From Pseudomonadota bacterium (GTDB taxonomy: Bacteria > Myxococcota_A > Bradymonadia > UBA4248), in NCBI GenBank assembly GCA_017555665.1, contig JAFZFY010000022.1:1-33317 (forward strand): a stretch of 33,317 nucleotides of DNA, in the 5' to 3' direction. Shown here in pieces: positions 53 to 33,284 of the stretch (position 1 is its first letter; the number at the start of each line of letters is the position of its first letter). Below the pieces are notes generated by a model, which had not been told where the DNA came from, searched no databases, and was given only the letters and a program-made list of their open reading frames with translations. Made by a program: the position numbers and the translations under genes.

Positions 53-102
53 GAACAGATAAAAGAATCCTAAAAGAAATCTGCATATATGGAGGCGTGA
101 GG

Positions 103-3100
103 ATGAAATATAAACTTGTGTTTTGTGCGGCGCTTTGTCTTTGCCTTGCATCCTGTGGTGAGGAAGGGACGCAGAAAACGCCGGGCGGTCTGGAGCCTGT
201 GGAATCTTGCGGCAATGGCGTGATTGATGACGGCGAAGCCTGCGATGATGGCAACGATGTTTCAGGAGACGGCTGCGCTTCAGGTTGTGTCGAGGTCGAG
301 CGCGGCTATGCATGCGAGACGCCTGGTGAGCCTTGCAAAGAGAACAAGACAGATCCTGAAAAGCCTGGGCCGGAGCCTGCGGCGTGTGGCAACCGTGTGG
401 TCGAGTCTGGCGAATCGTGTGATGACGGCAATACGGAGTCTGGGGACGGCTGTAGCGCGGATTGTACGACCGTGGAGCCTGACTGGTCGTGCCCGGCTGC
501 GGGAGGCGCGTGTGCAAAAGGGCAGGCGTGTGGTGACGGTCATCTCGATGACGGCGAAGCGTGTGATGATGGCAACACGGCAGACGGAGACGGCTGCGCC
601 GCCGATTGCTCAAAGATCGAAGATGGCTGGAAATGCCCGATTGAAGGGCAGGGCTGTGCGACCATGAAATGTGGCGATAGCCATGTCGATGATGGCGAAG
701 CGTGTGATAACGGTGATCTGTTCAATACGGATTACGGCGTGTCTGAGGATGACTGCGCGACGAATTGCCAGCCGGCGCATTACTGCGGCGATGGCCTTTT
801 GGATGCGATCGATGTGCAGTATGGCGAGCAGTGTGATGCAGGCGGCGACAAGTCTTCGGAATACAATGGCTGCACATCGGACTGCAAGCGCGTCAATTAT
901 TGTGGTGACGGCAAGATTCAGTCGGAACATGAGCAGTGTGATGACGGCAATACGGCCGATGGTGATGGCTGTGATGCGGATTGTCAGTTTGAGTCGAATT
1001 TTGTCTGTGTGACGGAAGAAGGCAAGAGCGTGTGTCGCCCGATACTGTGTGGGAATGGCGTGATTGACAGCGGTGAAGCGTGTGATGATGGCAACCGTGT
1101 ATCGGGGGATGGCTGCTCCAATATCTGCCTTGTGGAAAAGTTGTATCGATGCGAGGCGGATTCCTTTGGAAAATCGAACTGCACGCTGACCTGTGGGGAT
1201 AAGACGCTTGATGTCGATCAGGGCGAAGCGTGTGATGATGGCAATACCCAAAATGGGGATGGCTGCTCGTCGCAGTGTTCGGTGGAGCCGGGATATTCGT
1301 GTGCCGGGTCGGCCTGTTTTGCGCGTGCCTGCGGTGACGGGATCGTTGCCGGTTTTGAGGAATGTGACGATGGCAATACGCAGAGCGGCGACGGCTGCTC
1401 GAAGTTCTGTCTTCGTGAAGAAAACTATCACTGTGACGAGGGCGGCAGGCTTTGCGATGAAGATGTTTGTGGGGATGGCAAGGTTACCGGGGACGAGACG
1501 TGTGACGAGGGCAAGGGTAATGAAACCGCAGGCTGTGTGAATTGTCGCGTGCAGATGGGGTGGAAATGTCCGATCATGGGGGCATCTTGTGAACACGCGG
1601 AATGCGGCAACAGCGTCATGGAGGGGGCTGAGACATGCGATGAGACATCGGAATGTTGCAAGGCGTGTGTGATTCAGCCGCACTGTTTGTGCGATGATGC
1701 CGGTCATAATTGCAAGCAGGGGGAATGCGGCAACGGCGTGCTCGAATCTGGTGAAGAATGTGATGACGGAAACCATGATGCCGGTGACGGCTGCAGCCCG
1801 GTCTGCCAGGTGGAGGCGATTTTTTCTTGTAAAAACGGCGTATGTCAGGCGCGTTGTGGCGACGGTCTGACGCTTTGGGAAGCCGGAGAGGAATGCGATG
1901 ACGGCAACCTCGTGTCGGGGGACGGCTGCTCCTCGGAATGCAAAATTGAGCCGGGATATACATGTACAGACTTTTCGATTCCCAATCCGCCATCGATCTC
2001 GCTGCCCATCACGTATCGTGATTTTCGCGGCTGGCACGAAGGTTCGAGTGCGACAGCGCCCGGATTTCTCACGCAGGCTCGCTATGATTCATTACCCGAT
2101 ACATGCACGAAGAATTCGGCCTACAGGACTCAGAATTATCCTCAAGTGCACTGGGCGATCCCCGATTTCCAGTCTGAATGTCTGGGGCAGAACTGCATGA
2201 ACACGGTCTATGAAGATCTCGATAAGGACGGCAAACCGGTATTGCAGCCACAGACAAACTTCAGGAATTCCTCAAATGGCACGTACAGCCGGGATCTCGG
2301 GGCGACTTATACGTGTCCGGAAGTCTATGCCTGGTGGTATCGCGACCTGCCCGACCTCAATGTGACGATCCGCACGTTCCTGCCGCTCACGCAGGATGCG
2401 AACGACAAGAGCCGTTATTCGTTCCAGAGCCTTTCCTTTTTCCCGTTCATCAACCAGGGGTATCACGACCCGAACATGGAGAAGCGGTCGCCGAATTCCG
2501 GCACGTTCACTTCGGAATTCGAGACTTATTTCAGGTTTAAGGGCGGGGAGTCGCTGACATTTAACGGCGATGACGACGCATGGGTGTTCATCAACAACAA
2601 GATTGCGGTCGATATGGGGTGCATGCATGGCAGCATGACGCGCACGGTGACGCTTGATGATAACACGGCGAAGCGCCTGAATATCTATCCGAACGGCATT
2701 TATTCGATCAAGATGTTCCACGCGGAGCGGTGTTCGAGCGGCGTGGATGGCTCGACGTATCAGATCACGCTTTCGGGCTTTGTGAACATGGGGACGAGCG
2801 ACTGCCAGGCGACATGCGGCGACGGCCTGATCCGTGGTGCCGAGGAATGCGATTTGGGCGATGGGCATGTCAATGATGCGTATGCGCAGATGGCAGGGTG
2901 TGTGAACTGCCGCCTTGCACCGAAATGCGGCAACGGCAAGGTCGAAGCCGGCGAGATCTGTGACAGCGGTCATCTGTGCAAGTCAGGGGCTGCCGAAGGA
3001 TGCACTTATCATGCGGATGTCGAGGCCAATGGGTGCACGACGAGCTGCACGAACCCGAACTGCAACAACGGCAAGCTCGATCCTGGCGAGGACTGCGACT

Positions 3101-3597
3101 GTGCCGGCAGCGGCACGTGTATCTTTGCCGATGCCTACCAGTCTGGGAATCCGGCTTGCCTGAATTGTCGCATATCTGGATGTGGTGACGGCATTCTGGA
3201 TGGGTCAAACAAGGAAGAATGCGACGACGGCAATCTTTCTGACGAGGATATGTGCACGTCGAAATGCACGCTTCCCAAGTGCGGTGACGGGATCGTTTCT
3301 CCGGCAATTGGCGAGGTCTGCGATGACGGTATCAACGATGGCGGTTATGGACATTGCGGTTACGGCTGTTCATACGAACCGCCTAAATGTGGCGATGGCA
3401 TTGTGGATCAGGCACATGGCGAATTATGCGATGATGGTCCCGATATGGCTGGCGGCTATGGCAAATGCACCAAAGCGTGCAAATATGAGGAATATTGCGG
3501 TGATCACATTGTCCAGGACGCATACGAGCAGTGCGATGACGGTGATCAGAACGGCAAGGGAAGCTGCACCGCGCAGTGTGAGTTTGCCGTGAATTGA
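103..3597 (+). CDS. DUF4215 / Myxococcus cysteine-rich repeat lipoprotein with fibro-slime domain
   Basis: This is a large secreted lipoprotein, 1164 residues from the ATG at 103. GGAGG at 91-95 lies 7 bases before that ATG; an in-frame GTG at 97 is too close to it. The signal peptide ends in the lipobox LASC (Cys18). About 13 repeats of the DUF4215 type (CGDG...GEECDDGN...GDGCS..C) cover residues 30-630. A fibro-slime/PA14-like domain follows at about 635-893, recognisable by [27 protein letters not shown] and DMGCMHG. About seven further, more degenerate repeats run to the C-terminus. Such proteins are known mainly from Myxococcota and relatives, as cell-surface or extracellular proteins; the ligand is unknown. 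The acidic repeats with paired cysteines suggest a disulfide-stabilised, possibly Ca-binding stalk, which is inference. Palindromic repeats begin 10 bases after the stop. The domain assignment is confident, the function is not. Confidence 0.93.
190..1965 (+). repeat. Intragenic DUF4215-coding repeats
   Basis: The coding repeats are similar at DNA level too. The string GAAGCGTGTGATGATGGCAA recurs almost unchanged near 557, 1075 and 1224, with variants near 236, 698, 943 and 1755. Exact repeats of this kind allow unit gain or loss by recombination. A second, more diverged block lies at about 2812-3580. Confidence 0.8.
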
Positions 3598-7857: not shown

Positions 7858-9378
7858 TTACTCGTTGCAGGTGCTGTTGTCTTTGCAGCCTTTGGGACAA
7901 AGCATCGGGATGAGTTCAAGCGCATGTTCCATGCAGGGGAGAAGGATGCCCTGTGCATTCGGGAGTTTGATGCATAACGCGGACTCGCAGGCGCATTTAA
8001 ACGGGGATTCCGTCGTGATGGCGCATGTCGAGATCGTGTTCCAGGCGTTATCGGAACACAGTTCGATGTCGATATCTGTGGCATCGGATTGCGACGTGAA
8101 TCTCATCGAGCCGTTCGGACAGGCATTGCATTCCAGGGTGACATCATTGCATCCGTATGTGCATGCCTGAATGGGTTCCCAGATGCCGTTGCGGCATTGC
8201 TGCCGCTGATTGCCATCACATTGATATGTGAATTCCTCACAGAGTGCCGTGCTCTGCGGCCGCGTACAGGCGGCTTTGTTATTGGTCTCTGTGCAGTTGA
8301 GACATTCGGTGAGTTTGTTCCATCTGCCGTTATTGCATATCTGCAGGATATTCCGCTCTGTATCTTCACAGGTTTCGTTGCCGCACCAGCATCGTGTTGC
8401 ATAATTCTGGCATTCGCCCAGGATATTTTTTAATTCTTTGTCGGGATAAGTGCTCATGCAGGAGCTTTGATTCGGATTGAGATTTTCCTGTTCGCTCCAT
8501 GTGTTGTCCTGGCATTTTGAAATGATGCCGATTCCAGCGCTGCTATCTTTGCAAAGATAGTAATTATTTTTGCAGGAGAGACAGTCTGTGCCCTTCTCAT
8601 CACAACCGCTCTGGCAGGTAAAGGGGGCGCTCCACGTGCCATTGACACATCGGCGGACCTCGTCATTTGTACATACCGAGGTCTGATTGATACATTCGCC
8701 GCACCCCTCTCCCTTGCAGGAGACATTATTGCAAGTTTCGGATTGCCATAGGCCGTTCTGACATGTCTGGATCAGGCCGATGCCGTTGATATCTTCGCAG
8801 ATGGTTTCATCCCGTTCGCAAGATTCTCCGATCTTGTCCGTGCATTGATCGACGCCGTTCACTGTTTTGCATCCCCAGATGCAGGGTTCCTCAAAAGCGA
8901 TGCCTTGAGCGCATCGAATCAATGTTTTTTCGTCTTTGCAAGTGACCGAATCGTTGAGGCACTGTCCGCATCCGGAGTTATCCGCCCTGCATGAGACGGG
9001 CTTGTCGTTGATCATGCATTCCGAGCCGTAAGACCACTGTTCATTTCTGCAGATCATCATGCGTCCAGCATTGTCTGATGTGGTATTCAGTCCGTTGGCG
9101 CAGACATCCAGAGCGTTATGGCATGCAGTGCCTGCCTGCGGGCCTGCGGAGGAGCAGTGCAGGCCTCTGTCCACACAGACCGCGCCTTGTGCGCATGGGA
9201 TTTCGTTCTTTTGGCCGCAGAAACACTGGTTATATCGGATTTCTCCAGAGCCGTTATGGAGCGTGCCGCCGCTCGCGAGGCAGAGCGATTCAAATTCCGA
9301 GACATTGACATCGAAACCGTCACAGCCCAGTGCAAAAAAAGCCGCAGTGACCGCAATCAGGAATGGGTGTTTATGCAT
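7858..9378 (-). CDS. Cysteine-rich repeat lipoprotein (cassette 2)
   Basis: This secreted protein of 506 residues starts at the ATG at 9378; AAAGG six bases upstream overlaps the stop codon of the preceding TPR gene. The signal peptide ends at FALGC (Cys19), compatible with lipidation. The mature protein is a string of degenerate units of about 40-50 residues built on C.NG.W....C and CG.C.N....C, for example GCGECINQTSVCTNDEVRRC and C.NNGRWNKLTEC. Tens of cysteines, presumably all in disulfides, imply an extracytoplasmic location. It is paralogous in style to the proteins at 10601 and 12426 but lacks their shared C-terminal module. I recognise no named family; EGF-like or DUF4215-like stalk modules are the nearest comparison. 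It is co-transcribed with the TPR gene 9 bases upstream. Confidence 0.88.
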   Translation of the reverse strand: MHKHPFLIAVTAAFFALGCDGFDVNVSEFESLCLASGGTLHNGSGEIRYNQCFCGQKNEIPCAQGAVCVDRGLHCSSAGPQAGTACHNALDVCANGLNTTSDNAGRMMICRNEQWSYGSECMINDKPVSCRADNSGCGQCLNDSVTCKDEKTLIRCAQGIAFEEPCIWGCKTVNGVDQCTDKIGESCERDETICEDINGIGLIQTCQNGLWQSETCNNVSCKGEGCGECINQTSVCTNDEVRRCVNGTWSAPFTCQSGCDEKGTDCLSCKNNYYLCKDSSAGIGIISKCQDNTWSEQENLNPNQSSCMSTYPDKELKNILGECQNYATRCWCGNETCEDTERNILQICNNGRWNKLTECLNCTETNNKAACTRPQSTALCEEFTYQCDGNQRQQCRNGIWEPIQACTYGCNDVTLECNACPNGSMRFTSQSDATDIDIELCSDNAWNTISTCAITTESPFKCACESALCIKLPNAQGILLPCMEHALELIPMLCPKGCKDNSTCNE

Positions 9379-9387
9379 AGCGAGCCT

Positions 9388-10239
9388 TTAAAAAGTGATC
9401 AGAACGTTCAGGTTGGACGGTCCAAATGCCACGGATAGATCCGATGCAGTGTCTGTTTCTGATTCTGGGCGCAGCTGAATATATTTATATCCGGAAATGC
9501 CGGTCACGATCGCGCCAGCCACTGTCGCGCCCAGACCGATGCCGAGTATGGAATAACCGGCTGGATAGAGCGGCACGAGATTGTAGTGAAGTTTTGTTTC
9601 GGTGCTGTCGCGTTCCACCGGATTCCTGCCCGCGAGCACAACCATTATGGAGCCTGCAAACGTCAAAGCAATCCCGCCAAGCCCGATGCCTGCACCGACC
9701 CACATCATCCGTTCGTAAGCGAGGTATTCCTTATCTTTTTCATGGATCAGCACTTTGTCGCTGTCCATGAGTTCGAGCTTGAGCTTTTCGATCTCTTTTG
9801 CTTGTGCTTCCTCAAGTTCGAGATGTTTGTCAATCGCTTCCTTTGTGCGTTCAGGATGTTCGCTTTCATAAAGCGTGTACCAGATGCGTCGCGACAGGTT
9901 TTTGTCGACTTCAAACTGCGAAGTGTTGACGCTGGCGATCTGAAAGTATTGCAGCGCTCGGTTTTCCTCGCCTTTTCCCCTGAATGCAAGTCCCGTGTAG
10001 TAGTTCAGGGCAGGTGAATCCTTACATATCGGAAACAGGACTTTGGCATCTTCGAGCGCCTCGTCATAATTCTGTTCCATCAGGTGGCGGAGCAGCTCCT
10101 GCATCATGCCGTTCCACTCGTCGTGGGCCTCTAGGTTGTCACATTCATTTGCCCAGGCATTCGCGGCAGCCAGAAACATCAGGCCGGCAGCCAGCACGGG
10201 TACCAGGCGGAACTTCAGGGAAGAGATGAATTTGGGCAC
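9388..10239 (-). CDS. Secreted TPR-like protein with two membrane segments (cassette 2)
   Basis: The protein has 283 residues from the GTG at 10239, which has AAGGA six bases upstream; an in-frame ATG at 10254 has no such site. A signal peptide (ending near NAWA) precedes a TPR-like helical region (SPALNYYTGLAFRGKGEENR), the block RRIWYTLYESEHPER, a short charged coiled coil (KEIEKLKLELMDSDK), and two glycine-rich hydrophobic segments (WVGAGIGLGGIALTFAG and ILGIGLGATVAGAIV). The C-terminus FGPSNLNVLITF ends in Phe after alternating hydrophobics, resembling an outer-membrane beta-signal. The protein at 14477 shares every one of these elements, so the two are paralogs. It starts a two-gene unit with the Cys-rich lipoprotein at 7858. 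The role is unknown; an envelope scaffold is my guess. Confidence 0.88.
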   Translation of the reverse strand: MPKFISSLKFRLVPVLAAGLMFLAAANAWANECDNLEAHDEWNGMMQELLRHLMEQNYDEALEDAKVLFPICKDSPALNYYTGLAFRGKGEENRALQYFQIASVNTSQFEVDKNLSRRIWYTLYESEHPERTKEAIDKHLELEEAQAKEIEKLKLELMDSDKVLIHEKDKEYLAYERMMWVGAGIGLGGIALTFAGSIMVVLAGRNPVERDSTETKLHYNLVPLYPAGYSILGIGLGATVAGAIVTGISGYKYIQLRPESETDTASDLSVAFGPSNLNVLITF

Positions 10240-10314
10240 TTTGGATCCTTGCATTAAGACGACTGTTCTGATTGCGGCAGGGGAATTGGCTGATACCAGA
10301 CCGCGCTTTATTCT

Positions 10315-10366
10315 AACGCGATTTGCTGGAATTAGGCATGTATTAATTTATGGATCGCGTTTTTTT
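10315..10366. other. Inverted repeat in leader of cassette 2
   Basis: AACGCGAT (10315-10322) and ATCGCGTT (10354-10361) form an 8-base inverted repeat around an AT-rich 31-base spacer, followed on the plus strand by a T-run to 10366. No plus-strand gene precedes it. It may be part of the promoter or leader of the TPR gene at 10239. Otherwise 10240-10486 shows nothing I can name. Confidence 0.35.
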
Positions 10367-10486
10367 GCTGCCAGGTCATTCGCAGGCGCTTTCAAAATAA
10401 CGGGGGAACTTGAGGCATGCCAGACTTGCAAGGGCGCGTCATGGTATGGGATATAGCGTTTGAGAAAATGAGCTGTGGTCTGGGGC

Positions 10487-10517
10487 GCGGCTATCGGGCG
10501 GCTGCCCGATACGCCGC
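10487..10517 (-). repeat. Bulged-G palindrome, copy 4a
   Basis: GCGGCTATCGGGC (10487-10499), loop GGCT, GCCCGATACGCCGC (10504-10517), with one extra base in the right arm. It lies about 80 bases past the stop of the Cys-rich gene at 10601. Relative to that gene, this pair of copies points opposite to most others. Confidence 0.85.
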
Positions 10518-10523
10518 ACAAGG

Positions 10524-10561
10524 CGCTTTGCTATCGGGGCAGAGCCCCGATACGCAAAGCG
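10524..10561 (-). repeat. Bulged-G palindrome, copy 4b
   Basis: CGCTTTGCTATCGGGGC (10524-10540), loop AGA, GCCCCGATACGCAAAGCG (10544-10561). This is a 17-pair stem with one extra base in the right arm, the longest of the family here. It shares the CTTTGC outer arm with copy 3a in the reverse orientation. Confidence 0.87.
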
Positions 10562-10600
10562 GTTTTCGCTCATGTCATGCATGATCAAGGCTTGTGCGGC

Positions 10601-12313
10601 TCACGGATCGTTTTCGATACACGCGCCGTCTGTGCAGCCATCCGGGCATTGTCTGTCAAACTCAGATGCCCATATCCCGTTGACACATGTCTGGAGCGTG
10701 CTGCCGACGCATTGGGTGCTCAGTTCCTGGCAATTGCCGCATTGGGTTTTGCCGGCATCGACGACTTGGCAGGAGGCGTTGTTGGCGCAAGGTTTGTCCG
10801 AATCGCGGCTGTATCCGACGAGTTTGCCATCTTTATATTGATTGTAACACTTAATATCGTCCTTGGATTGAAATCCCGATATCTTGCAGGCCATATAAAC
10901 ACCTAATTCGATGAATGGATTTGAAAAAAATTTGCAAGGCGTGGTCGTAAGGATCTTTCCATTCAGACATGTATATAATTCTTTATCGGATTGAGATGCC
11001 GTGATCGTATAATTCGTGCAGGTGCCGCAATGTATTTCGCCACTCGTTTGATGCGTGCACGAAACGTTTCCGGCACAGAGCGAGCTTTCAAGCCAAGTGC
11101 CGTTTTGACAGATGTATTTTCGGCATTGAAGCGTCGGAAGATCGGCATAGGATTCGTTTCCATCCTGGCATTCGCCGCATTGATTGAGATTGCATGAGTA
11201 ATGATTCGGACAGGGCTCAATCTGCCATTTGCCCTCCACGCATGTCTTTAGCGTCGAGTTTTCACAGATGACCTCGCCATATCGGCATTCGCCGCACTCC
11301 GTCTCGGAGGCGCACATGACATTATCCTGGCAGATGGCTTCAAGGCGTTTTTGACCTTCGCAGATTGAAAAAATGCCAATATTCTCAGAATTATGGCATT
11401 TCTTTTCGCCCTCCGTGTTGCATATTTGCTGACATGTGAACGCCTCTTCAGTCTGTATGCATTCGGTCGGGCATTTGACGGCTTCTATATATTTGCCATC
11501 CACACAGGTTTCGATGGATGGGCCAGCACATCTCTGGGTGCCGTTGATGCATTCGCCGCATCCGTCTTTGGTGCATGAGTATGCGCAGGTGAACGATGAG
11601 TCGATCTGATATTCACCGTCATGGCAAATCTTCTTTTGGCAGATATCGGCTTGGTTGTGGTAGGTGGCGGATCCTTCTTTGCATTTCTCGCAGTAGTTAG
11701 GATTATTCTCTTCGACCATGTCATCCCATTCGCCGTTAGTGCAGATTCGCCTGAAGCAGATATCGCCCCAAAGGAAATATTCGACCGTGTTGTTGAGGCA
11801 TGTGCCGCAGATATAGTGGGGATCCGTCTTGTCATCTGTGTCACTGTCAATCGCACATGAAACGCTGCCACAGCTTTCCAGGTCAGTCCATTGTTTGTTT
11901 TCGCATTGTTGCTTGACACACGTGCCATCTGGATTTTGAAAGAACCTGGTTTCGTCATTTTTGCACAGACCGCAGAACAGGCTGTTGTCTTCGGGCTGAT
12001 AATCCGTCCATCTGCCGTTTTTACATATTCTTTTTTGGCATTGATTGTCCTCAAACTGATAATCGGCGGTATTATTGCGGCATTCGCCGCACACGTATTT
12101 ATCATCGGTTTTTCGGCAGGAGGCATGGGCGCAACTGTTTTCTGCGACCGTGACCCAGGCTTTGTCGGTGCAGATCTGTATGGCGCAATAGCCGTCGTCG
12201 GTCGGGGCGAGCCGGGTTTCGCCTTCAAGCGTGCATTCCACGACATGGTCGATGTCAGTGAGCGAGCATGCAGAGCAAATGACAAGGATCGCGAAGGGCA
12301 TAATCGTTTTCAT
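10601..12313 (-). CDS. Cysteine-rich repeat lipoprotein with conserved C-terminal module (cassette 1)
   Basis: This 570-residue secreted protein has GGAGG five bases before its ATG at 12313. The signal sequence ends at ICSAC (Cys16), a passable lipobox. Repeats follow of the form CGECRNNTADYQFEDNQC then C.NGRW, about 40-45 residues each. The last 140 residues (from CGTCTNY on) align closely with the end of the neighbour at 12426. Shared landmarks are LYTCL.GK, YMACK/YIACK, KDDIKCYN, YSRDSDKPC against YYRDNDKAC, and LSTQCVGSTLQTCVNG. This common module marks the pair as duplicates that diverged in their repeat parts. It lies 112 bases behind the 12426 gene with a bulged palindrome in between, so it may be expressed both with and apart from it. 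Function is unknown; a surface-exposed adhesive or protective role is inference. Confidence 0.88.
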   Translation of the reverse strand: MKTIMPFAILVICSACSLTDIDHVVECTLEGETRLAPTDDGYCAIQICTDKAWVTVAENSCAHASCRKTDDKYVCGECRNNTADYQFEDNQCQKRICKNGRWTDYQPEDNSLFCGLCKNDETRFFQNPDGTCVKQQCENKQWTDLESCGSVSCAIDSDTDDKTDPHYICGTCLNNTVEYFLWGDICFRRICTNGEWDDMVEENNPNYCEKCKEGSATYHNQADICQKKICHDGEYQIDSSFTCAYSCTKDGCGECINGTQRCAGPSIETCVDGKYIEAVKCPTECIQTEEAFTCQQICNTEGEKKCHNSENIGIFSICEGQKRLEAICQDNVMCASETECGECRYGEVICENSTLKTCVEGKWQIEPCPNHYSCNLNQCGECQDGNESYADLPTLQCRKYICQNGTWLESSLCAGNVSCTHQTSGEIHCGTCTNYTITASQSDKELYTCLNGKILTTTPCKFFSNPFIELGVYMACKISGFQSKDDIKCYNQYKDGKLVGYSRDSDKPCANNASCQVVDAGKTQCGNCQELSTQCVGSTLQTCVNGIWASEFDRQCPDGCTDGACIENDP

Positions 12314-12360
12314 GACAACCTCCTAACTCACACATTCAATCAAAAATGCACATCATGGAC

Positions 12361-12394
12361 GCCTTGCGAATCGGGGTGAATTCGATTGCAAGGC
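12361..12394 (+). repeat. Bulged-G palindrome, copy 5 (AATCG variant)
   Basis: GCCTTGCGAATCG (12361-12373) pairs with CGATTGCAAGGC (12383-12394). The inner stem is AATCG/CGATT instead of TATCG/CGATA, a compensated change, and the single unpaired G sits at the same place. It lies between two genes of the Cys-rich cassette, 31 bases after a stop codon. Confidence 0.8.
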
Positions 12395-12425
12395 ACAATT
12401 TGGGAGGGGGATGAGTTTTTGTGGC

Positions 12426-14459
12426 TTATTGGGATGGGCAATTATCCTGTGTATTCCATTCGGCAGGGTCATCGACCCATTTGCCGTTAATGCAGGTCTG
12501 AGGTGTGCTTCCAATGCATTGGGTGGCCAGTTCAAGGCAATCACCACATGTTGTCTGGTTAATGCCACTCACATGACATGAGACACTATTTTCACACGCT
12601 TTGTCATTATCGCGGTAATAGCCTATAAGCATACCATCGCTGTTTTTTTTGTTGTAACATTCAATTTTATCATCTTTGTTGGGGGCAAAGAGAGTGTCAC
12701 GCCATTTACACGCTATATATTCTCCATAATACTCAAGCGTACACGTTTCATTCGTCTCTTGTTTGCCATCAAGACATGTATAGAGCTTTCTAATAACGCC
12801 ATCCACTGTTCCTGAGAATGAATAGTTTGTGCAATTTCCACATGTTGCGTTTCCATTTTCTATTTTGCAGGAATGTTGGTCAGGGCATGTGTAATTATCC
12901 ATTGTCCATTGTCCATTCTTGCAAATAAATCGCTGACAAGACTGGTTTGGCATATCTAAATATTTAAGATCACCGTCTCGGCAAAGACCACATTTGTTGT
13001 CAGTACATGATACGGCGACATCTGAGCATGGAATAGATTTAGCCCAAACGCCTTGCTCACAAGTGGTATAGAAGGCGTTGCTGTCGCCCTCTTCACATTT
13101 CGTATCTCCGTTATGACATAAGCCACATTGGGTACCATCGCAAGAGTTGTTATCTTGACAGAATTGATCGGAAATGTCTGTGAATGCACCATTCTGACAG
13201 ATTTGTATGATGCCGACATTCATGTCATTATCACGGCAACTTTTTTCTTCAAATTTGCACTGCCCACATTCTGGTAAATCGCTGTTGCACATGTTATTGT
13301 TTGGACATGGATTGATTGTACTGATTCCGTTCTCACATTTTGAAAGCACACCTACATGACTTGAATTGTCATTGCATATTGTATCATTGGATAGACAATC
13401 TGTTGTACAGAGCACATTGTTATCTTCTGAAATGGCGCAGTCTTTACATTGCATAAGTGGTTCATACTGACCGTTTGAGCATATTTGAAGTGTATCTGCG
13501 TCGCAATTGCGTTTGCCGTTCAGGCATTTACCCATCTGTTTGGTTCCATCAATACTATAGATACATGATACTGGAGATGAAGTGTCTTGATTAGAGTTCA
13601 CCCATGTGCCATCAGTACATACATAAGTAGAGCATATGTTATCAACTTCACGTATCTCGGTTTTGCCATTTGCGCACTCACCACATGATGGAGCGCATGA
13701 ATTAGCATCTGTACAGGCTTTTCCTAAACATGAGACTCTTTTTTCATCTGATGCATCTGATCGGCACTCATATAGCTTCTTCCAGTCACCAAAAATGCAC
13801 TGCTCTATTAATCCATATTCTTCATTACTATTAGGATCCGTAATACATCTTTGTTCACCATTTATGCAATTGCCGCATTCTGTTTTTTCTGAGTTACACG
13901 AAGCGTCGTCGCAATTGATACTATGTTCCCAATTCCCATTTTTACAAATTTCAATATAAGCATCTGAATAAGCATCTGAGGCATTGGGGACTGAGTTGTC
14001 GATGCAGCGAGAAACGCCGTTTTTGCATTTCCCGCATTTATTGTCATTACAAGAGGCATCTTCGAGACAGATTTGGCTATCCCAATGACCGAGCACGCAT
14101 TTTTTTACTAATCCCGTGTTGCTCGAATTATCACTGCATGTAGATTGATCATCTTGGCATTCTCCACATTGATATTCTACTGACTCGTCGCTATTTGTAT
14201 TAAGCGCACATGAAACAATATTTCCATCGCTATCTTTGCATGAGCCCGTTGTATCCCATTTGTTTTGATGACAACTCTGAATGAGACATTCTAGATTATT
14301 ATCGGTTGGATAGTATCGGGTCTCGCCCTCTGTGGAACAATCGATTTCAACGACTACTTCAACTTTTGTCGACTCAATCTTAAAAATATAATAATCTTCA
14401 CAGCCGCTTAGTAAAACAGAAGCACAGATTGAAACAATATATGCAAGCTCTTTTTTCAT
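12426..14459 (-). CDS. Cysteine-rich repeat lipoprotein, AT-rich (cassette 1)
   Basis: This 677-residue lipoprotein has a textbook lipobox LLSGC (Cys20) and an AGGGG-type ribosome-binding site seven bases before the ATG at 14459. The mature part holds roughly a dozen degenerate units. CG.C.NG...C alternates with a variable spacer, C.NG.W and a closing C....SC, as in KCGKCKNGVSRC and CKNGNWEHSINC. Many units include C.DN...VG/TG, also seen in the two sister proteins. The final module of about 130 residues matches that of the protein at 10601. By eye this gene is more AT-rich than its paralogs (many AAT, GAT and TTT codons), which may reflect a different history. It starts 17 bases after the TPR-like gene at 14477 and is certainly in its operon. 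Function is unknown. Confidence 0.9.
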   Translation of the reverse strand: MKKELAYIVSICASVLLSGCEDYYIFKIESTKVEVVVEIDCSTEGETRYYPTDNNLECLIQSCHQNKWDTTGSCKDSDGNIVSCALNTNSDESVEYQCGECQDDQSTCSDNSSNTGLVKKCVLGHWDSQICLEDASCNDNKCGKCKNGVSRCIDNSVPNASDAYSDAYIEICKNGNWEHSINCDDASCNSEKTECGNCINGEQRCITDPNSNEEYGLIEQCIFGDWKKLYECRSDASDEKRVSCLGKACTDANSCAPSCGECANGKTEIREVDNICSTYVCTDGTWVNSNQDTSSPVSCIYSIDGTKQMGKCLNGKRNCDADTLQICSNGQYEPLMQCKDCAISEDNNVLCTTDCLSNDTICNDNSSHVGVLSKCENGISTINPCPNNNMCNSDLPECGQCKFEEKSCRDNDMNVGIIQICQNGAFTDISDQFCQDNNSCDGTQCGLCHNGDTKCEEGDSNAFYTTCEQGVWAKSIPCSDVAVSCTDNKCGLCRDGDLKYLDMPNQSCQRFICKNGQWTMDNYTCPDQHSCKIENGNATCGNCTNYSFSGTVDGVIRKLYTCLDGKQETNETCTLEYYGEYIACKWRDTLFAPNKDDKIECYNKKNSDGMLIGYYRDNDKACENSVSCHVSGINQTTCGDCLELATQCIGSTPQTCINGKWVDDPAEWNTQDNCPSQ

Positions 14460-14476
14460 ATCCGTACCCCTCTTGG

Positions 14477-15307
14477 TTAAAATGTAAGTCTGAAATTGAC
14501 GCTTGATGGACCTATACTAAAGTCGAGGGGGCTTTTTTCTTTTTTATTCTCGATATAATAATAGGCTCCGATGCCAGTCATGGCAGCGCCTGCTGCTAAC
14601 ATTGCAATGCCGGCACCGAAAACCGCCCAGTCGAATACATAGGATCTGTTTATGTCATATACGCGTTCCGATGTGTCATCTTTGTGCGATGCTTTGTATT
14701 CTTCGGTAATATCGACATATTTGTCGTTATAATCTTTTCTAAATCCCAGCACGCCACCTGTGATGGTCATCAGCAGCCCCGCGCCGGCGATACCGACACC
14801 TGTCCACATGATGATATTGTTTTTGAGCTGGTCCTTATCGATAAGATCAATATTCTCTTGGAGCAGGCGCGTGTTTTCTTGATGCAACTGCTGGTTGATA
14901 TCATTGAGGGAATTCAGCGCGGATTCCTTGCGCTCCGGGTGTTCTGCCTCGTATCGCTCGTACCAGATGATGCGCTGCATTTCGGGTTCTACGACGAACT
15001 CGGACGTGTATTCGCTCGCTTTCTGCAGATACATCACGCCTTTGGTATGCTCGCCAGTTTCCAGAAGCGATTTGCCGATCAAATAGTTCAGGGCAGGCGA
15101 TCTTGGGCAGGTGTTGTACAGTTCGCGCGAAATTTCAAGCACCTTGTCATACGATTTGTCTGTGAGGGCTTCATGGGCGCGTTTGATGTTTTCATTCCAA
15201 GTCGGATCCTGGCTGATGGTATCGCAGGGGTCGGCAAAAACCGTTGAACTTAGGAATGGCAGCAGGATCAGGCTGCATAGAAATGCCTTGCTTATGGTGG
15301 TCTTCAT
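14477..15307 (-). CDS. Secreted TPR-like protein with two membrane segments (cassette 1)
   Basis: The protein has 276 residues from the ATG at 15307, with AGAGG seven bases upstream; the open frame runs further but the signal peptide (MKTTISKAFLCSLILLPFLS, cut near VFA-DP) begins here. Then come a TPR-like region (SPALNYLIGKSLLETGEHTK), the block RIIWYERYEAEHPER, a coiled coil (QQLHQENTRLLQENIDLIDK), a first hydrophobic segment (WTGVGIAGAGLLMTITGG), a charged loop, a second one (AVFGAGIAMLAAGAAMTGIG) and the C-terminal strand IGPSSVNFRLTF. The same order and several identical blocks occur in the protein at 9388. It heads cassette 1. The terminal aromatic residue suggests possible outer-membrane insertion, but a full barrel is not visible; two inner-membrane helices are the alternative. 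Confidence 0.9.
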   Translation of the reverse strand: MKTTISKAFLCSLILLPFLSSTVFADPCDTISQDPTWNENIKRAHEALTDKSYDKVLEISRELYNTCPRSPALNYLIGKSLLETGEHTKGVMYLQKASEYTSEFVVEPEMQRIIWYERYEAEHPERKESALNSLNDINQQLHQENTRLLQENIDLIDKDQLKNNIIMWTGVGIAGAGLLMTITGGVLGFRKDYNDKYVDITEEYKASHKDDTSERVYDINRSYVFDWAVFGAGIAMLAAGAAMTGIGAYYYIENKKEKSPLDFSIGPSSVNFRLTF

Positions 15308-15442
15308 TTGATCGCCTCTCGAAAAAAATTCACGGCGGAGACGCGCTTCGCCGTTGATATCATCATGGAATTTGCTGTGTCTGTCAAACGGCAAATATCC
15401 GGAAGTCCTCTGTCGGGCTGCGCCGCGCATCCTTGCGCGGAT

Positions 15443-29969: not shown

Positions 29970-30095
29970 GCCGAGGTGATTTGGTGGGGGAGCATGCGCC
30001 GCTTTCTGTCGATTTTGAATGCCGAATTGGCTATATTGTATATGGACGATGAGTGGCCGTTTTATGGTCAGTTTGCCCTGGAGATATGTTTTTTT

Positions 30096-33000
30096 ATGCT
30101 CAAACGTAACGTGAAATATGTGTCAGTCTTCTGTGTGTCAGTTGGGCTCTGTCTATGCGGATGCATGCCGGAAGTTGATGACGTGTTCCATTTTCATGAG
30201 GGCGAGAAGCCTGAGCCGGGTCATCCGACGACGCCAACGACGCCAACGACCCCGACGGATCCCGGTGGGGAGTCGCAGCGTCCCGGTGGGTCAGGTGGTG
30301 TGACGCCAGGGCCGGACCCTGGAGAGCCGGAAGACCCCGGAAGCCAGGGCGGTGGCGGCGCAGTTGTCTCGCCTGAAGTGCTTGGCATCGAGCTTGTCTC
30401 GCCGGCATCCGGCGATGTACGCGGCGGTTACGAGGTCCGTGTGCATGGTGCCGCGCTCGATGCATCCGGGATCGTGCAGTTTGGCGGCATCCAGGCACCG
30501 TCGCAGACCTTTGTGAACAGCAACGTGGTGCGTGCCATCGTGCCGCCAGGAAAACTCGGCTGCGTGGATGTTCTGTGGCATCAGGGGGAGGAGACGCTGA
30601 CGCTTGAGCGTGGGTTCTGCTATACCGAGAATGTCGGGGTGAAGACCGTGACCCCCGATGTCGTCGTGGCTGGAGAGCTTTCCGAGATATCGCTGGTCGG
30701 AAACGGTTTTGATGACCGCACGACGGTGTATTTTTCAGACGGAACGCGGAGTTCCGGCTTGCTCGATATGGCTTTGTCATCCGAATCGCGGCTGGCGGGC
30801 AGCATCGTGCTCGATGAGCCGGGGCAGTCGACGCTTTATATCGTGAACAGCACAAGCCATGCGGTTTTGAAAGACGCGGTTCGAGTCCTTCCGCGTCTCG
30901 TGCCAGAGCATGCGGAACCTGCAGTCATCGAGGTCGGCAAACAGCCGTCCGTCAGCCTTTCGGGGCATGGTTTTTCCGAAAAGATGCATCTCCGCATCGG
31001 GTCTGCCGTCATCGAGCCGGCGTTTGTGAGTTCGGATAAGGTCACGTTTGCCGCGCCGATCCTTCCGGCCGGGAGTTACGATATCCTCGTGTATGACGAC
31101 TACAGGCAGTATCGTCTTGAGAAGGCGTTGCACTACTATGCGTCCGGGACAAAGCGCGAGCTGTACGCGGTGTCGCCGGCATTCGGGTCGGTCAAGGGCG
31201 GCGAAACGGTGCGCATCTCCGGTGTGGGCATGACGTCGGGCGCGACATTTATGTTTGGTTCCAAGACTGCGACATCGAAGGAATGTACGGATGTGTCCTG
31301 CACGGTCACGACACCGCCCGGCTTGGCTGGGGGTGTCGATGTGGTGTCTGGAGAGCTGAAGATCGCGAACGGGTATGAATATATCGTCATTCCAGAGGTG
31401 ATGTCGGTCGAACCGTCCAGCGGCAGTGCCGGGGACACGGTGGTGCTTGAAGGCACTGGCTTTGGGGACGGGCTTCGGGTTTATCTGGGCGGCCATGAGT
31501 CGTCGCAGGTCCGTGTCATGTCTGATCGTAAGGCGGAAGTCGTGGTGCCTGAAGGAAGTGGCGATGTCCGCATCCGGACGGTGCAAGGGCGCGCGGACAG
31601 AACCTCAGATGTCGTGTTTTCCTATGTGTCGCCGGTATCGGTCGTCGGTGTGTCGCCTGATCAGTCGGTCATCCTGGGGGGCACGACGGTGCAGGTGTTC
31701 GGCACCGGATTCACGCCTGGGATGACGCTTTGGCTTGATGGCGTGCAGATCGAGGATGTCACGGTGAATGCGGCGAATATGATCACATTTACGGCGCCGG
31801 CGCATGAAAAAGGCGAGGCCCGGCTGATACTTCGCTGTGAGGACGGGACGGCTTGTGCGGAAGCCGGGCTGACATATTTCAATCCGACGGGGATCAACAC
31901 GAGCGCCTCAGGCGGTGTGATCAATGGGCAGCTTCACGTGACAGTGCTCACGGTCGATACGGCGGTTCCGATCCCGAACGCGACGGTCTATGTGGGCAGC
32001 GACCTGAATTCTGCCGTGACCGCGACGACGGACGAGAACGGCCGTGTCTCATTCTTTTTGGATGATCTGAAAGGGGCGCAGATCGTGACGGCATGCGCGC
32101 CCGAGCATTCGTGCAACACGCTGCAGCCCATCAATGCCTCTGTAATCACCCTCTTCTTGGAAGACTGGCATGCGAATGACAAAAACTCGTCGGAACAAGA
32201 TCCGCCGCCTCCGCCGCCGCCTTCGGATGGCGATATGATCAACCCGATCGATGTCACGATCGAGTACACGCCTCAGCCGGCTTATTTCACCGGGACGGTT
32301 GGCAGTTTTGGCAAGGAGGAGCTGATTTCAAGCCCTGATCTCGTCAAAGCCGGCATCGTGATGCAGTCTACGCTCAGCCCGTATGCGCCTTATTATCAGT
32401 CTGGAGATGTCTATCTTCTTTTGGAAGAGGGCGCGGAATACAAGATCCAGGCGCGCAAGGGCGATGTGGCGCTCGCCCTTGTATGCGGGCTTTACAATCA
32501 GTTGACGGGCACGCTGATGCCTCGATATATCGGCGTGAAGCGCCATCAGTTCGTGTATGATGGCGTGGAGATCGTGAACCATCTGGAATGCCCGATACCG
32601 CTCAACCAGACGCAGAGCGTCAAGCTGCTCGATCCGCCGCTCCATTCCGGGCCGAATGTCGTATCCGGTTCCGCTTATCTTGAGTTTGGGGATGAGGGAT
32701 ATATCGGGGGCTTCATGAGCGGTCAGTCGGAGACAGATCTCGTCGTGATCACGAACATGCCGCCGCTTCGCGACAGCATCGCAGATGCGCATTTTGCGTA
32801 TTCGGTGGGGGCATACACGAACATGGGCTATCCGGCGACGGTATTTTACGAGTATGACACGCTGCCGTCCGAAACGCCGCTCGAGGTCGGACCGGCCGCG
32901 CCGATTCCCGTTTTCGTCACCAAGCCTTATGACGATGTGCTTTCCCAGGGCGTCGTGTCTTGGACGATCGAGCATCCTCAGAACGTTGATTTCTATTCGC

Positions 33001-33284
33001 TTGTCATGCGCGATTATCGTTCGTCAGGCGTGGTGCTCGTGAATCAGGCATACCTGCCTGGCAGCGCGACATCTTTTGAGTTTCCGAAAGTCTACCAGTG
33101 GGCGGAAGATCATTCCAGCCGCCTCTATATCTCGCTGACGGCTTACAAGTCTGTTCGCGAGGGGTTTGATTTCAACCGCTTTTCGACGGGTGACACGCGA
33201 TATAATTATATTCATTCGTCTGCGAATACGACGCTTGTCGTGTATGATCCAGAAACGGCAGCGCTGTATTATCCGCAGCACTGA
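30096..33284 (+). CDS. IPT/TIG-repeat lipoprotein
   Basis: The protein has 1062 residues from the ATG at 30096, where a signal peptide begins and ends in the lipobox LCGC (Cys23). The frame is open from 29976, but that extension has no export signal. A Pro/Thr/Gly-rich linker with PTTPTTPTTPT (about 45-90) leads to about six IPT/TIG immunoglobulin-like domains (about 95-600), each starting with V..VSP..G...GG..V.V.G.GF. A carboxypeptidase-regulatory-like domain follows (about 610-690, NATVYVGSDLNSAVTATTDENGR). A run of seven prolines (about 703) precedes a C-terminal 350-residue region that I cannot assign. It is anchored at the outer membrane and probably surface-exposed; adhesion or polysaccharide binding is usual for TIG arrays. 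No good ribosome-binding site is visible. Confidence 0.92.
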   Translation: MLKRNVKYVSVFCVSVGLCLCGCMPEVDDVFHFHEGEKPEPGHPTTPTTPTTPTDPGGESQRPGGSGGVTPGPDPGEPEDPGSQGGGGAVVSPEVLGIELVSPASGDVRGGYEVRVHGAALDASGIVQFGGIQAPSQTFVNSNVVRAIVPPGKLGCVDVLWHQGEETLTLERGFCYTENVGVKTVTPDVVVAGELSEISLVGNGFDDRTTVYFSDGTRSSGLLDMALSSESRLAGSIVLDEPGQSTLYIVNSTSHAVLKDAVRVLPRLVPEHAEPAVIEVGKQPSVSLSGHGFSEKMHLRIGSAVIEPAFVSSDKVTFAAPILPAGSYDILVYDDYRQYRLEKALHYYASGTKRELYAVSPAFGSVKGGETVRISGVGMTSGATFMFGSKTATSKECTDVSCTVTTPPGLAGGVDVVSGELKIANGYEYIVIPEVMSVEPSSGSAGDTVVLEGTGFGDGLRVYLGGHESSQVRVMSDRKAEVVVPEGSGDVRIRTVQGRADRTSDVVFSYVSPVSVVGVSPDQSVILGGTTVQVFGTGFTPGMTLWLDGVQIEDVTVNAANMITFTAPAHEKGEARLILRCEDGTACAEAGLTYFNPTGINTSASGGVINGQLHVTVLTVDTAVPIPNATVYVGSDLNSAVTATTDENGRVSFFLDDLKGAQIVTACAPEHSCNTLQPINASVITLFLEDWHANDKNSSEQDPPPPPPPSDGDMINPIDVTIEYTPQPAYFTGTVGSFGKEELISSPDLVKAGIVMQSTLSPYAPYYQSGDVYLLLEEGAEYKIQARKGDVALALVCGLYNQLTGTLMPRYIGVKRHQFVYDGVEIVNHLECPIPLNQTQSVKLLDPPLHSGPNVVSGSAYLEFGDEGYIGGFMSGQSETDLVVITNMPPLRDSIADAHFAYSVGAYTNMGYPATVFYEYDTLPSETPLEVGPAAPIPVFVTKPYDDVLSQGVVSWTIEHPQNVDFYSLVMRDYRSSGVVLVNQAYLPGSATSFEFPKVYQWAEDHSSRLYISLTAYKSVREGFDFNRFSTGDTRYNYIHSSANTTLVVYDPETAALYYPQH

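Follow-up and report, generated by a model that had tools for sequence, protein, structure and literature searches.

The window, that is, the whole stretch of DNA analysed here (33,317 nucleotides), is a complete contig (C150) of a gut Myxococcota metagenome-assembled genome (MAG) of 4.12 Mb in 416 contigs, which is 99% complete with an estimated contamination of 4%. Its named close relatives are rumen and omasum MAGs, namely "Proteobacteria bacterium" from roe deer and goat, "uncultured Myxococcales bacterium", and Myxococcales bacterium UBA4248.

The main features of the locus are listed in Table 1. A gene encoding an exported protein, here called E, is followed by one or two genes encoding Cys-rich lipoproteins with lipobox-like signals (Lp), and this arrangement occurs twice in tandem on the minus strand, exactly at the coordinates given in the initial annotation. 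Gene calling followed a greedy ORF rule, and lipoboxes and kinases were assigned by sequence patterns. The gaps between consecutive genes are 17 nt (E1-Lp1), 112 nt (Lp1-Lp1b), 346 nt (Lp1b-E2), and 9 nt (E2-Lp2). The spacings of 17 and 9 nt had been noted before and are exact, but their interpretation as co-translation goes too far, as gaps of this kind suggest a single transcript. An RBS-like GAGAGG lies just upstream of the E1 start codon (ATG at 15307), and an alternative GTG start of E2, with AAGGA ahead of it, is possible near position 10239. Just upstream of the E1 operon is a gene for a BspA-type leucine-rich repeat protein (PF13306; 15757-17454, minus strand), and the gene at 29976-33284 (plus strand) specifies a large protein in which four TIG domains occur together with choice-of-anchor Z repeats.

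Table 1. Features of the E-lipoprotein locus (positions counted from the first nucleotide of the window)
Feature	Position	Strand	Description
E1	14477..15307	-	Signal peptide, TPR-like domain, IWYERYEAEHPER block, coiled coil, TM1, TM2, C-terminal strand ending in F276
Lp1	12426..14459	-	Cys-rich lipoprotein of 677 aa with 10.9% Cys and the lipobox LLSGC at residue 20
Lp1b	10601..12313	-	Cys-rich lipoprotein of 570 aa with 11.6% Cys, the second one in the E1 module; its signal reads LVICSAC
E2	9388..10254	-	Paralog of E1, 31% identity
Lp2	7858..9378	-	Cys-rich lipoprotein of 506 aa with 11.7% Cys and the lipobox ALGC at residue 19
Sigma-70-like promoter TTGACA-17-GATGAT	15359..15387	-	Upstream of E1; consensus match only

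The five-gene order E1, Lp1, Lp1b, E2, Lp2 is also found in a roe-deer omasum MAG (L045/L129), where it is followed by an 848-aa gene of the same size as the UvrD-type helicase gene of the window; thus the arrangement is not an accident of assembly. The products of the two loci are 66% (E1), 42% (Lp1), 45% (Lp1b, with its ortholog at L045:7081-8916), 74% (E2), and 49% (Lp2) identical.

Architecture of the E protein

The signal peptide of E1 is likely cleaved after FA and before DPC, the pattern at this point in the family being A-x-A followed by D-x-C. The sequence motifs initially reported for E are present in both copies, E1 containing IWYERYEAEHPER and ending in GPSSVNFRLTF, and E2 containing IWYTLYESEHPER and ending in GPSNLNVLITF. 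A coiled coil runs into the first of two hydrophobic segments (TM1, residues ~168-188 of E1), which is separated by a short loop of ~29 aa from the second one (TM2, ~226-250); the charges flanking these segments do not define a clear topology. Both segments and the TPR-like region had been recognized in the initial annotation, and the present predictions agree with it. In the AlphaFold2 model, built from an alignment of 11 rows, three TPR helix pairs are predicted with pLDDT >90, a long helix (128-189) corresponds to the coiled coil continuing through TM1, and another one (221-254) to TM2. The profile search against chains of consensus TPR units gave E = 3e-22, a value inflated by the repeats, and the fold search retrieved TPR domains with an rmsd of ~2 A over ~86 residues, though with E above 1e-3; matches to single Pfam TPR models were below the cut-off. 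Judged by profile and structural model, E is a TPR protein, with predicted tandem helix-turn-helix pairs of the TPR type.

In the alignment of 62 of the 73 gathered homologs, W37, C67, W168, G177, G184, G233, and the C-terminal F276 are invariant, and C28 is conserved in at least 90%; the invariant W168 and glycines fall in the TM regions. At the C-terminus, the Phe at position 0 (62/62) is preceded by hydrophobic residues at -2, -4, and -6 with mostly small or polar residues between them. Such alternation ending in Phe resembles the end strand of outer-membrane proteins. Nevertheless, E is not a barrel, as its AlphaFold2 model consists of TPR helix pairs and two long helices; the C-terminal strand region is modelled with pLDDT <50.

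No Pfam or NCBIfam model matched the copies of E in the window above the cut-off. Matches to SycD/LcrH, MamA, HEAT_Nup120, and DUF3040 were below cut-offs and reflect the TPR or coiled-coil regions. The scan of a viral collection and the PHROGs search gave no relatives, and the viral fold search no significant match. Lp1, Lp1b, and Lp2 likewise contain no Pfam or NCBIfam repeat above the cut-off. The pair is not covered by any known family, in agreement with the initial annotation, which knew of no described system of such composition.

The search with E1 identified 11 copies of E in its own genome and 2 to 24 copies in each of five congeneric genomes; two further genera of the same family have one to three, and the next family gave a single weak match. 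The counts rest on fragmented MAGs, six of them from the genus; they bear out the earlier notion of a repeated two-part module with multiple paralogs, of which there are many per genome.

Pairing of E with cysteine-rich lipoproteins

The partners of E are predicted to be bacterial lipoproteins: 51 of 54 passed the lipobox rule (a pattern rule, not SignalP), and the other three are lipoprotein-like by eye. Their common repeat unit, CGxCxNGxxxC...CxNGxWxxxxxC, carried for instance by Lp1 (CGxCxNG..C..CxNGxW), was found at E up to 1e-4 in both sampled genomes of the genus and once elsewhere in 113 genomes of the phylum, while in other partners EGF-like repeats are combined with PKD-like and DUF285 regions. 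Of 42 complete partners, 33 have an even number of non-lipid Cys residues (p = 3e-4), which would be expected if all of these were paired in disulfides. Matches of Lp2 to complement factor H (E = 0.015) were regarded as a mere resemblance in the spacing of Cys and Trp, and the structural model of Lp2, built from two rows, was too poor for a fold search (pLDDT 51).

A Cys-rich gene (at least 7% Cys, same strand, within 200 nt) follows 51 of the 72 homologs of E that are not cut by a contig end, compared with 43 of 382 other genes of at least 150 aa in the same loci (Fisher p = 7e-25). The association of E with a Cys-rich neighbour therefore exceeds chance. The gap between E and its partner has a median of 15 nt and is 30 nt or less in 40 of the 51 cases. 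Copies of E lacking a Cys-rich neighbour fall into a few clades of the E tree, and in the paired clades the partner is directly downstream of 53 of the 54 E genes, counting as partners two proteins that contain 5.7 and 6.5% Cys.

The two genes are also inherited together. The N-terminus of the partner encoded next to the nearest relative of an E was among the three most similar ones in 23 of 46 cases, with 3.1 expected, and Mantel tests with whole E were beyond all 500 permutations. That the TM part of E correlated more strongly with the remainder of the partner was given no meaning, as alignment scores depend on length and composition. In four comparisons of orthologs between species, the lipoproteins (42-54% identity) are less alike than their E (60-74%), and in a fifth, lipoprotein and E have nearly the same identity (53 vs 55%). 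The Cys residues are largely retained; in particular, all 59 of Lp2 are aligned in its 49%-identical ortholog.

The initial annotation had asked whether the gene next to E is always Cys-rich, and this does not hold. In one clade (L044/L051), E precedes lipoproteins with 2-3% Cys, and all four of those scanned contain a GH13 alpha-amylase domain, with EGF-like repeats ahead of it in three (weak PF25024) and CBM48 in two. These loci (L051:3162-8849 and L044:462-5976), where E is followed by two or three lipoprotein genes, could represent a surface starch-degrading operon of a gut myxobacterium. In another clade (L095/L073/L098/L099), a conserved lipoprotein with ~3% Cys is encoded upstream of E, and a few copies have no adjoining lipoprotein at all. 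Conversely, the lipoproteins with the repeat unit and DUF285 in the genome of the window mostly do not adjoin E. The many Cys-rich lipoproteins with no E nearby indicate that E is not generally required in cis for such proteins. The same genome has ~76 matches to the DUF285 repeat, a family whose name derives from Mycoplasma, in some 20 genes (e.g., G000:C319, C40, C219), mostly away from E.

These exceptions would be expected if E had a general role in the envelope and the pairs had spread by tandem duplication of both genes, their adjacency having no functional meaning: partnerless copies of E exist and form clades, and Cys-rich lipoproteins without E are common. We regard this as quite improbable, as the order and spacing of the two genes persist among E paralogs of only ~25-35% identity and in five or more species, whereas the lipoprotein heads have been exchanged, so that similar E proteins are followed by widely different ones (pure Cys-repeat stalks, DUF285 surface repeats, and GH13 amylases). 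In addition, a membrane-proximal module, CxxSGG...CxC...C....C, is enriched in the partners. This pattern, chosen post hoc after the sequences had been seen, matches 27 of 53 first partners, including one doubtful case, and three of seven second partners, but only four of 49 Cys-rich lipoproteins that are not downstream of an E; of these four, two are upstream of an E and one match is doubtful. In the window the module is found in Lp2 (CLASGG...CFC...C....C), whereas Lp1 and Lp1b do not match the pattern. In the clade of L055, L056, and L060, the downstream partner is reduced to 73-84 aa and consists of little beyond this module. Upstream of E in L055 and L060 there are ORFs of Cys-rich lipoproteins, apparently split over two frames.

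The best explanation of the locus, in our opinion, is that an operon unit consisting of E and the one or two lipoprotein genes behind it is present here twice and has been multiplied in one genus of gut Myxococcota, and that E serves as a periplasmic adaptor, anchored in a membrane, whose specific task is to sort or anchor the lipoprotein encoded with it. The sequences show the conserved gene order, the inheritance of E together with its lipoprotein, the constant architecture of E, and the diversity of the lipoprotein heads, whereas the mechanism is inferred; we hold the explanation as a whole tentatively, with a probability of about 0.45. It has against it the Cys-rich lipoproteins with no E nearby, the E genes with no lipoprotein beside them, the lack of the module in Lp1 and Lp1b, the ambiguous charges around the TM segments, and the low confidence of the modelled C-terminal strand. 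According to this scheme, E would be an exported protein whose TPR domain lies in the periplasm, as the signal peptide suggests, and the helical hairpin would hold it in a membrane. The TPR domain, or the block that follows it, may bind the membrane-proximal part of the cognate lipoprotein, the target in about half of the cases being the CxxSGG..CxC..C..C module. E could then sort, retain, or assemble its lipoprotein towards the outer surface, while its alternating C-terminal strand with the invariant Phe would dock on another component of the envelope, for instance the outer-membrane assembly machinery. The lipoproteins themselves would be disulfide-stiffened stalks, and their many paralogs would provide a varied surface.

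Distant E-like proteins

Of the 141 phylum genomes searched with the profile of E, 57 gave matches; outside the genus these are weak and mostly cover the two TM segments and the C-terminal part. Of 29 distant proteins inspected, most end in Phe and have a TPR region and two hydrophobic segments. These proteins, for which there is no curated family, resemble E in the signal peptide, TPR, charged linker, two hydrophobic segments, and C-terminal strand usually ending in F, although the homology is weak; E alone has the IWYxRYExEHPER block, the Cys pair, and the pairing with Cys-rich lipoproteins, and it forms its own clade with support 98/99. Hence E has probably arisen from an old myxobacterial family of TPR proteins with two TM segments, later becoming associated with lipoproteins and increasing in copy number in this genus.

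About 12 of the 29 distant genes adjoin a gene for a Ser/Thr kinase, assigned by pattern (examples are L137, L141, L143, L180, and L187), and a few directly precede lipoprotein genes, four with the ligand-binding domain Peripla_BP_6 and one with FG-GAP repeats. Further, kinase genes are neighbours of two members of an unpaired E clade (L067 and L073). From this context, E and its lipoprotein could be thought to form a stable envelope-spanning receptor, in which the lipoprotein would bind a ligand outside the cell or in the outer membrane and E would carry the state across the inner membrane, as a relic of the kinase-linked E-like proteins. We consider such a receptor rather unlikely: none of the paired E genes inspected has a kinase gene beside it, the partners in the window have no recognized ligand-binding domain, and the loop between TM1 and TM2 is short. 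The lipoprotein neighbours of the distant relatives (six or seven of 29) do not clearly exceed the lipobox background of 16-21% either, and the idea that lipoprotein pairing is general to E-like proteins of the phylum was dropped for the same reason.

Known systems and the proposed function of the pair

The proposed adaptor has a counterpart in the Slam/NilB proteins of type 11 secretion (DUF560, SlipAM PF04575), in which a periplasmic TPR domain is fused to a membrane part and encoded beside the surface lipoprotein that it handles, paralogs having distinct cargo (PMC8406197). Similarly to Slam and NilB-NilC, E has an N-terminal TPR domain, predicted to be periplasmic from its signal peptide, and its gene adjoins the gene of a lipoprotein, the putative cargo. 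In contrast to them, E has two hydrophobic helices and a single C-terminal strand in place of the DUF560 barrel; no Pfam match of E to PF04575 was found, and the AlphaFold2 model contains two long helices. As the defining barrel was searched for and is absent, E is not a member of the Slam/NilB family. The search for SlipAM in the genus gave no match either, but the control search was equally silent.

A more specific proposal is that E is a surface-lipoprotein escort or translocation factor of an undescribed kind that dispenses with a beta-barrel, a TPR domain mounted on a helical hairpin, one per lipoprotein, which would read the membrane-proximal Cys module and serve a display route separate from both MYXO-CTERM and Slam; we think this unlikely.

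In Myxococcus xanthus, TraA and TraB are encoded by a two-gene operon and represent a Cys-rich surface stalk protein and its membrane-associated partner (PMC3325183). E-Lp has the same two-gene arrangement in the same phylum, with a stalk of Cys-rich repeats and many variants, and by this precedent could serve in cell-cell recognition, the lipoprotein being a polymorphic Cys-rich surface receptor and the adjacent gene supplying its helper. However, TraA has MYXO-CTERM, PA14, and TIGR04201 repeats and TraB an OmpA domain, none of which is shared by E-Lp: no Pfam or NCBIfam match to PA14, TIGR04201, or MYXO-CTERM was found in Lp1, Lp1b, and Lp2, and PF00691 (OmpA-like) is not among the Pfam matches of E members. 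Since, moreover, the helper gene comes first in E-Lp and there are more than ten copies per genome instead of one, a function of the TraAB kind seems highly improbable.

To our knowledge, little is known in Myxococcota about the surface placement of N-terminal lipoproteins, except for the MYXO-CTERM sorting of other proteins. Proteins with MYXO-CTERM number 0-9 per genome in the family of the window (f1, genomes G000-G007) and 11-50 in other genomes of the class, and their scarcity in this lineage fits a shift to lipoprotein display. The two-gene unit looks like a dedicated, unstudied means of displaying a wide range of stalk-like proteins on the cell. If so, uncultured bacteria of the ruminant gut would combine a constant helper with a variable display protein, starch-degrading enzymes included, in a pair repeated with 2-24 copies of E per genome in the genus. 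E would then be a concrete candidate gene for dedicated lipoprotein handling, and the lipoprotein side offers a candidate marker module.

Lp1, Lp1b, and Lp2 share with TIGR02232 (myxo_disulf_rpt) and other myxobacterial Cys repeats the general property of being Cys-rich repeats in exported myxobacterial proteins, but differ from TIGR02232 in the repeat unit described above, and none of the three had a match to this model at E up to 1. Elsewhere in the window, the myxobacterial Cys-rich repeat (TIGR02232, DUF4215) does occur, in 15 stretches of a large lipoprotein that is encoded at 97-3597 (plus strand) and also has a fibro-slime/PA14-like domain.
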